Shown here piece after piece: positions 3,778 through 23,916 of a stretch of DNA of 64,000 nucleotides (position 1 is the stretch's first letter; each line of letters opens with the position of its first letter). This stretch comes from Acidimicrobiia bacterium (GTDB lineage: Bacteria; Actinomycetota; Acidimicrobiia; IMCC26256; JAMXLJ01). Location: contig JAMXLJ010000070.1 of NCBI GenBank assembly GCA_024281095.1, positions 1 through 64,000 of the forward strand. The letters are read 5' to 3'. Below the pieces are notes generated by a model. It did no database searches. It was given only the letters and a program-made list of their open reading frames with translations, and had not been told where the DNA came from. The translations under genes and the position numbers were made by a program.

Positions 3778-4869
3778 ATGCAGGCAGCAGTGCTCGAGTC
3801 GCCCGGCGCGCCCATGGTCGTCGACGACGTCGACATCGCCGATCCGGGCCCAGGACAGGTGCGGGTACGTGTCGCACACTGCGGGGTGTGTCATTCCGAC
3901 GTCACCGTTGCCGCAAGTGGCCTCGCGCCCTTGCCCGTCGTGCTCGGCCACGAGGCGGCCGGACTCGTCGACGCCGTGGGCGACGGTGTGACGTCACTCG
4001 CGGAAGGCGACCCCGTCGTGCTGACGCCGATCCCGCCGTGCGGCCGTTGCTACTGGTGCGTTCGCGGTGAGCCGGGTGCGTGTGTCAACAGCCGTTCGCT
4101 CATGAGCGCAACCTTCCTCGACGGCTCGACCGGACTGTCGCGGAAGGGCACGCCGGTGTACCGCGGCCTCGGCGTCGGTGCGTTCGCGCAGTACGTGCTC
4201 ACACCCGAGACCGGTGCGATCAAGGTTCCGGCGGACACGCCCCTCGACGTCGCGTGTGTGCTCGGGTGTGCGGTGCAGACGGGTGTCGGCGCGGTGCTCA
4301 ACACGGCGCGCGTCGAGCCCGGCGCCACGGTGCTCGTGCTCGGTTTGGGTGGCATCGGTCTCTCGGTGGTGCAGGGCGCGCGAATTGCCGGAGCGTCGCG
4401 CGTCATCGTCAGCGATCCGGTGGAGGCCCGTCGCGCCGCCGCGGCACGCCTCGGCGCCACCGACGTGCTCGACCCGACCGTCGACGACGTCGCGGCAACG
4501 ACGTACGGCATCACCGCGGTGGGCGCGGACTACGCGTTCGAAGCCGCCGGCCGCGCCGCGCTCGTGAGCGTGGGCCTCGACGCCGTGCGGCCCGGCGGCA
4601 CCGTCGTGTGCGTGGGCGCCCCGCCGGTCGACGAGAGCATCACGATCTCGCCGGCCGTGGTGTTCAGTGCCTCGGAGAAGAAGTTGCTCGGCTGCCTGCT
4701 CGGGAGTTGCAACTCTGTGCGTGATGTTCCGCGTCTTCTTGCGTTGTGGCGTTCGGGTCAGCTCGATCTCGAAGCGTTGATCACGATGCGACGATCATTG
4801 GACGAGATCAACGACGCGTTCGCTGATCTGGAAGCAGGGCGGGGGATTCGGACCGTCATCTCGCTGTGA
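3778..4869 (+). CDS. Zinc-dependent alcohol dehydrogenase
   Basis: A 363-residue medium-chain dehydrogenase. The catalytic-zinc region is CGVCHSD and GHEAAG; the structural-zinc loop has four cysteines (PCGRCYWCVRGEPGAC); the Rossmann fingerprint is VLGLGGIGLS. This is the class III/Zn-ADH layout (formaldehyde, aldehyde or alcohol oxidation with NAD or another nicotinamide carrier). Start ATG 3778 follows AGAGGTGAG. It is monocistronic by context, ending at a pair of strong hairpins and converging with the nitroreductase gene. Confidence 0.9.
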   Translation: MQAAVLESPGAPMVVDDVDIADPGPGQVRVRVAHCGVCHSDVTVAASGLAPLPVVLGHEAAGLVDAVGDGVTSLAEGDPVVLTPIPPCGRCYWCVRGEPGACVNSRSLMSATFLDGSTGLSRKGTPVYRGLGVGAFAQYVLTPETGAIKVPADTPLDVACVLGCAVQTGVGAVLNTARVEPGATVLVLGLGGIGLSVVQGARIAGASRVIVSDPVEARRAAAARLGATDVLDPTVDDVAATTYGITAVGADYAFEAAGRAALVSVGLDAVRPGGTVVCVGAPPVDESITISPAVVFSASEKKLLGCLLGSCNSVRDVPRLLALWRSGQLDLEALITMRRSLDEINDAFADLEAGRGIRTVISL

Positions 4870-4888: not shown

Positions 4889-4961
4889 CGGGCGGGGGCA
4901 GCGCCGCCTGCTCCAGGCGCTTTCCAAGCGAACGTTCCGCAGGCGTCGCTGCCCCCGCCCG
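4889..4961. repeat. Family A palindromic element, copy 1
   Basis: Arms 4889-4910 and 4940-4961 are complementary at 21 of 22 positions. The 29-base loop 4911-4939 (starting CTCCAGGCGCTTTC, ending GAACGTTCCG) contains a small nested stem CGCTT/AAGCG. It sits between convergent genes, so it may also terminate transcription. Confidence 0.85.
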
Positions 4962-4963
4962 GG

Positions 4964-5032
4964 CGGGCGGGGCACCACCCGCTGCTCCAGGCGCTTTCAG
5001 CGAACGTTCCGCAGCGGGCGGTACCCCGTCCG
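4964..5032. repeat. Family A palindromic element, copy 2
   Basis: Arms 4964-4984 and 5012-5032 pair at 18 of 21 positions plus one G-U. The 27-base loop 4985-5011 equals that of copy 1 except for a two-base deletion that shortens both sides of the nested stem (CGCT/AGCG). The arms differ from copy 1, so stem pairing is kept while its sequence is not. Confidence 0.85.
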
Positions 5033-5042
5033 CGCGCGGACT

Positions 5043-5738
5043 TCACCCTCCGGCAGCCGGGTTTGGGTTTAGGGGGAAGGTGTTCCAGCCGGTTACTTGT
5101 TTGGCTGGTTGGCGGGCCGCTCGCTTGAACGCTGTGCCCCTGGTGTAGGCGACGGGGAAGAGGCCGGCTTGCATGTACTGGTCGTGGGGGATGCCGAGGA
5201 GGTCGGCGGCCTCGCGTTCGCGGAGCAGGTGCAGGGTCGTCCAGGCGCTGCCGAGGCCGCGACTTCGCAACGCGAGCATGAAGCTCCAGATCGCGGGGAT
5301 GATCGAGCCCCAACGGCTGGCTTGCTCGAAGACGGGAGCGTCGTCGGTGCGGCCGGCGATTGCCGGCACGACGAGCACCGGGACCTCGTGGAAGTGCTCG
5401 CGTAGCCACATCACGGACTCGGTCATGCGTTGCATCGCCGGTGAGGGTGCTGCGGCCGTCGCCGCGGGTGCGGTGCTGCGCCGGGGCCGGTTGATGTAGT
5501 CGATCATCGCGGCCGCGTAGATGTCGACGAGCTTGCGGCGCACGTCGGCATCGTCGACCACGATCCAGCGCCAGCGTTGTTGGTTGGAGCCGTTCGGCGC
5601 CTGGAGCGCGAGGTCGATGCAGCGCTCGATCACCACGCGTTCCACGGGCCGGGTGAGGTCGAGGCGCTTGCGCACCGCCCGTGTCGTCGTCAACACCTCG
5701 TCGATGTCGGTGGGGCCGTGCCGTTCGTCGACGGTCAC
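5043..5738 (-). CDS. Nitroreductase-family flavoprotein
   Basis: The 231-residue protein has the nitroreductase fold features: an N-terminal substrate/FMN-binding segment (TTRAVRKRLDL), APNGSNQQRWRWIVV, and a C-terminal GIPHDQYMQAGLFPVAYTRG stretch. Such enzymes use FMN and NAD(P)H on nitroaromatics, quinones or enones. GTG 5738 overlaps the stop of the enoyl-CoA hydratase gene by four bases (GTGA), so it is the last gene of a coupled leftward operon. Substrate unknown. Confidence 0.85.
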   Translation of the reverse strand: MTVDERHGPTDIDEVLTTTRAVRKRLDLTRPVERVVIERCIDLALQAPNGSNQQRWRWIVVDDADVRRKLVDIYAAAMIDYINRPRRSTAPAATAAAPSPAMQRMTESVMWLREHFHEVPVLVVPAIAGRTDDAPVFEQASRWGSIIPAIWSFMLALRSRGLGSAWTTLHLLREREAADLLGIPHDQYMQAGLFPVAYTRGTAFKRAARQPAKQVTGWNTFPLNPNPAAGG

Positions 5739-10274: not shown

Positions 10275-10325
10275 CGTTCATGCGTGGATTCGCGCCTCTG
10301 AGCGACGCGAATCCACGCATGAACG
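10275..10325. repeat. Family B palindromic element, copy 1
   Basis: A perfect 20-bp inverted repeat (10275-10294 with 10306-10325; core TTCATGCGTGGATTCG) flanks an 11-base loop. It begins one base after the DUF6510 stop and probably ends that transcript, although no T-tract follows. Confidence 0.85.
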
Positions 10326-23901: not shown

Positions 23902-23916
23902 CGGTACATCTTCGCG

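Follow-up and report, generated by a model that had tools for sequence, protein, structure and literature searches.

The 4.39 Mb genome of an Acidimicrobiia bacterium (assembly GCA_024281095.1) carries about 18 long hairpins, by a census that rests on samples, which share a nearly exact core while the sequences of their paired arms covary. The hairpins lie in gene 3′ regions, mostly between convergent genes, they are absent from the sampled relatives, and their cores and arms have been reshuffled among copies. We interpret them, from sequence and at about even confidence, as a species-restricted dispersed stem-loop family that may terminate transcription in both directions, or act as a barrier to read-through, without a U-tract.

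The twin hairpins A1 and A2

Two members of the family lie side by side in the window, the whole stretch of 64,000 nucleotides that was analysed. A1 occupies positions 4889 to 4961, with arms at 4889–4911 and 4939–4961 that form 23 bp with one mismatch around a loop of 27 nt. A2 follows after a single base, at 4963 to 5033, where the arms (4963–4985 and 5011–5033) form 23 bp with three mismatches on the plus strand around a loop of 25 nt; two of these mismatches are A.C on the plus strand and read G.U on the other. Neither hairpin is assigned to a strand. The folding z values were −7.3 for A1 and −7.1 for A2, none of 200 shuffles was as good, and the covariance model matched A1 with 82.5 bits (E 2.5e-11) and A2 with 80.2 bits (E 6.3e-11).

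The constant core, read on the plus strand, spans 4910 to 4940 in A1 (GCTCCAGGCGC-TTTCCAA-GCGAACGTTCCGC) and 4984 to 5012 in A2 (GCTCCAGGCGC-TTTCA-GCGAACGTTCCGC); the constant halves flank an apical part that varies. The two loops differ solely by two bases (CA), a change that shortens the apical stem from CGCTT/AAGCG to CGCT/AGCG and leaves it paired, and the arms differ in sequence with pairing kept in each. The sequence-only reading had described just such a pair, with a near-constant loop, arms that differ but pair and a preserved nested stem, and this description holds. A plain recent tandem duplication was rejected as the origin of the twin, the cores being nearly identical while the arms differ. 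Upstream, the stop codon of a zinc alcohol dehydrogenase gene (3778–4869, plus strand) is about 18 nt before A1; downstream, a nitroreductase family gene (5043–5738, minus strand) has its stop codon about 8 nt from A2.

Copies, core and position in the genome

The bipartite core GCTCCAGGCGC-n-GCGAACGTTCCGC, with a spacer of 3–7 nt, occurs exactly 15 times in the genome, compared with zero for the reversed control, and variants at C124, C165 and C70:90.4k raise the number of hairpins from 15 to 18. The sequence-only reading depended on further copies that do not match in the arms alone, and those found match in the loop rather than in the arms, which makes structure plus loop sequence the conserved unit. 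The core, of about 30 letters, consists of an asymmetric internal loop and a small stem that caps it. On the plus strand, an arm of 20–23 bp leads through closing G-C and C-G pairs to the TCCAGG side of the internal loop and then to the apical stem, which consists of CGC/GCG plus a variable pair and a short loop; AACGTTCC on the opposite side of the internal loop, the closing pairs and the other arm follow. The alignment of 15 copies shows 23 core columns without any variation, and the fourth apical pair covaries as well (U-A to C-G). Double changes were seen at 21 of the 23 arm pairs, and 93% of the cells pair, far above the shuffled and slid controls. The core is under much tighter constraint than the arms, paired as these are. 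Outside the core, no constant sequence was found within 24 nt on either side of the 15-copy alignment. The 15 exact cores against none in the control, the 18 hairpins and the double changes along the whole stem together indicate that the A1/A2 pattern did not arise by chance.

Cores and arms do not travel as fixed pairs. The same apical loop is found with different arms in C133 and C146, in C140 with C12 and C175, and in C1 and C145 (16–21 differences in 32 arm positions), and nearly the same arms (1–2 differences) carry different loops in C84, C140 and C146. This reshuffling indicates independent exchange of core and arms. Errors of short-read assembly at repeats, near contig ends, could contribute to the apparent modularity.

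Gene neighbours were typed with a gene model made for this analysis. Among 15 typed loci, 10 are convergent, five are codirectional and none is divergent, compared with a convergent background share of 13% of intergenic gaps by length and 16% by count (p about 1e-5, and below 1e-3 once the group linked to DUF222-HNH genes is collapsed). Stop codons are usually 0–60 nt from the hairpins; wherever both neighbours were typed, at least one stop codon is no more than 70 nt away, with the weakly called C145 as the sole exception. The orientation of the motif relative to the nearer gene is mixed, and whatever the hairpins do therefore works in both directions. No conserved neighbour gene was seen beside the copies, other than in the HNH subgroup.

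Other palindromic repeats were also observed. A second dispersed family, at 10275–10325 of the window and again at 23915, has constant arms (GTTCATGCGTGGATTCG) and a near-palindromic centre (GTCGCTSAGCGAC), with 49 nt between its fixed ends; about 15 copies are listed, one of which adjoins a hairpin of the present family at C12. Hairpins with constant outer stems and variable inner stems occur both in this genome (AGTTGGGA..., L243, L244 and L256) and in a genome of the same genus (GATGCGGCACT..., L228, L229 and L315), where at least two are directly behind genes.

Known elements and related genomes

The family belongs with known stem-loop repeat families as a variant of them, and what sets it apart is that the core is constant instead of the arms. 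Like REP and REPIN elements with TnpA-REP (RAYT), the 18 intergenic hairpins are short, dispersed, extragenic and sometimes paired, and recognition of REP/REPIN sequences can involve unpaired stem positions or the loop (PMC8266576, PMC3116915). Unlike those elements, they have arms that are not conserved, number about 18 rather than hundreds, and have no recognisable GTAG-like tetranucleotide foot. The sequence-only reading had named a REP-associated tyrosine transposase as a thing to look for, but a search for Y1_Tnp (PF01797) found none in the genome, which is 98% complete; the control search matched six of 14 known genomes. With no detectable Y1_Tnp, membership in a RAYT/REP system is rejected as tested. 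Dispersed stem-loop sequence (SLS) families, of which 41 of 92 published ones are intergenic, resemble the present family in being repeated in one genome with a common predicted stem-loop, here mainly intergenic (PMC1590033; PMC2267715), but here sequence conservation is confined to the core and the arms change yet pair. A known Rfam RNA family was also rejected, as the hairpins reach no curated gathering score; only tRNAs do so in the window, and weak matches to microRNA models fall far below the cut-offs.

No U-tract follows A1 or A2, and the consensus terminator scan calls neither, so a canonical intrinsic terminator was rejected despite the strong G+C-rich stems. The hairpins bear a closer likeness to hairpin-cluster terminators, in which one or two stable hairpins lie within tens of bases of stop codons, the prediction scheme does not call for a U-tract, and the commonest unit is a two-hairpin cluster near a stop codon (PMC8355165). 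The measure for U-less terminators is a stable hairpin no more than about 80 nt from a stop codon, and the typed copies, C145 apart, conform to it. However, hairpin-cluster terminators have short stems and no common sequence (PMC8355165), in contrast to the 20–23 bp stems and exact repeated core described here. The sequence-only reading had set its hairpins apart from a plain terminator; this contrast is weakened by copies that stand just after stop codons and mainly between convergent genes, as bidirectional terminators would.

Copies in relatives were sought without success. The exact core was absent from GTDB r220 contigs, from 99 relatives and from viral contigs (IMG/VR), and no similar DNA was found in phages and plasmids. 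A looser core with CTG/CAG ends had no match in 394 other genomes of the class, although such ends fit only about one third of the genome's own copies. A relaxed contig scan returned at least 106 stretches, and none among the matches listed had the motif inside convincingly paired arms. Covariance-model searches gave nothing above chance in 60 relatives or in 1.47 Mb of the genome from the same genus, the latter yielding no copy. So far, then, a single species is known to carry the family. Its nearest relative, of the same genus, is distant (51–92% identity in the orthologues examined), and C124 is the single syntenic site with both neighbours kept there, the flanking orthologues being 70% and 77% identical. 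The equivalent gap of the relative holds an unrelated 23 bp palindrome (CGAGATGCGGCACTGACGTACGG-att-), and several further hairpins there share its outer stem. The relative's alcohol dehydrogenase, aminotransferase and thiolase orthologues have a different neighbour gene and no comparable hairpin behind them. This one syntenic case fits the idea that gene-end hairpins may be replaced over time by lineage-specific families.

Interpretation and alternatives

We propose that the hairpins would stop transcription in both directions at gene ends. The family is defined by the fixed internal loop, asymmetric in form, and the apical stem on it, both set in a strong G+C-rich stem that is free in sequence provided that it pairs. 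The core may be held constant through recognition by a putative RNA- or DNA-binding factor or by a putative copying machinery, and the arms may be re-perfected in part by replication template switching. The constant core, the covarying arms, the convergent 3′ sites, the synteny at C124 (one site) and a wobble bias considered below were counted for the terminator reading; the missing U-tract and the 24 invariant or nearly invariant bases of the fixed core, needless in a plain terminator, were counted against it. With only about 18 hairpins, the family cannot be the general terminator of the genome.

One alternative hypothesis, which we regard as possible but rather unlikely, is that the hairpin is a REP-like miniature mobile element, its internal loop being recognised by a putative transposase or recombinase that is not Y1_Tnp, and that it was copied into intergenic regions at gene 3′ ends, where it would do no harm. 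The family is dispersed and species-restricted, and convergent intergenic sites would be a neutral refuge. The core is exact in almost all copies: the half motif GCGAACGTTCCGC has 17 exact occurrences in the genome, 16 in family hairpins and one half copy (C175:4828), and its one-mismatch matches resemble background, except for the known C124 variant and a weak C172 candidate. By these counts, decayed copies are almost lacking. Truncated left halves directly precede full hairpins at C140 (345–422), C145 (13740–13816) and C70 (90412–90474), each of them ending at GCTCCAG(G), and C175 has a right half 86 nt beyond its full copy. The recurrence of this junction suggests that replication stalled and slipped within the hairpin, or that the core has a favoured site of breakage. 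Besides the absence of Y1_Tnp, however, recent transposition predicts matching arms, whereas outside the HNH-linked group about half of the arm positions differ between most copies, and neither an empty site nor a target duplication could be shown.

Another scenario, to our minds unlikely, is that the hairpin, as RNA or extruded DNA, binds a protein in cis for mRNA 3′-end processing, stability or nucleoid organisation, the core being the putative site and the stem a scaffold, with termination not its job. A core much more constrained than its arms is what one expects of a recognition motif in a scaffold, and the presence of both orientations relative to genes would suit a role at the DNA level. 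An RNA-level role would be suited by the wobble bias: in the 16 bp beside the core, wobble-type mismatches on the plus strand are 11 A.C against one G.T, equivalent to G.U on minus-strand RNA (p 0.006, ignoring shared ancestry). This bias hints at transcription or an RNA-level constraint on the strand 5′-GCGGAACGUUCGC-n-GCGCCUGGAGC-3′, and the same sign would be expected from a transcription-linked mutational strand bias. On the other hand, no candidate partner was found, the copies outside the HNH subgroup have no conserved gene next to them, and placement at gene ends is equally what a terminator needs.

DUF222-HNH genes, counting fragments, number about 16 in the genome (at C142, C62, C82, C81, C85, C110, C146, C165, C105, C140, C84, C41, C77 and C128); their 5′ regions share a TGTCACACCCCCCGTTCATA-like upstream sequence, and several contigs end inside this gene. 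Just behind the stop codons of five of them (C84, C105, C140, C146 and C165) stands a hairpin with near-identical arms. The likeness to the REP13E12-type DUF222-HNH repeats of actinobacteria (named in PMC10589994) lies in these multicopy genes, five with a 3′ hairpin, and one could envision that the hairpin is the 3′ end of such a mobile element and that solitary hairpins are remnants or short derivatives. Past the hairpin, the five loci are unlike one another except for the arm extension GAAGTGTGTGAAGC in C105 and C165. We nevertheless think this explanation very improbable. Six other copies with intact 3′ ends (C142, C62, C82, C81, C85 and C110) lack the hairpin, so that the repeat includes it at only five of about 11 intact ends rather than throughout; the five themselves differ in the stretch from stop codon to hairpin; and most hairpins lie away from these genes, with no HNH fragments seen beside them. 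Probably, gene and hairpin were duplicated together, as hitchhiking in one subgroup and not as a general rule. At C105 the arm runs on into GAAGTGTGTGAAGC on one side, and at C165 into the complement of GAAGTGTGTGAAGC on the opposite side (L045, L103), possibly as the trace of a longer palindrome that template switching produced and that was later lost in part, or of mixed assembly paths.

Replication template switching can create and repair both arms of a stem in one event (PMC8794818) and so also yields covariation in long DNA palindromes; covariation alone is therefore not proof of selection on RNA structure. The sequence-only reading had taken structure plus loop as selected, and of this claim the conserved unit across copies stands, while the covariation may have the other origin. 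That the palindromes were perfected in this way with no function at all, the core being merely recent, is nonetheless extremely improbable, for although one-sided arm changes are rare, G.U intermediates are few and C105/C165 may bear a footprint of the process, it leaves unexplained the exact core alongside diverged arms, the convergent 3′-end bias and the wobble asymmetry.

Beyond the terminator reading, a bolder and distinctly doubtful proposal is that the fixed core is a module installed and exchanged within free palindromic arms by a putative machinery that is neither RAYT nor any described system, and that it would serve as the lineage's gene-end punctuation, to be replaced by other hairpin families over time. 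To our knowledge, the arms are conserved in REP elements and in most other dispersed palindromes. The nearly exact core, combined with turnover of arms that keep their pairing, is a natural experiment that separates the recognised part of a hairpin from the part that merely pairs. The family also offers a clean case in which to set selection against replication template switching as the source of compensatory changes in long hairpins. Finally, it suggests that a lineage draws its gene-end hairpins from repeat families of its own, one of which can take the place of another at a given site.
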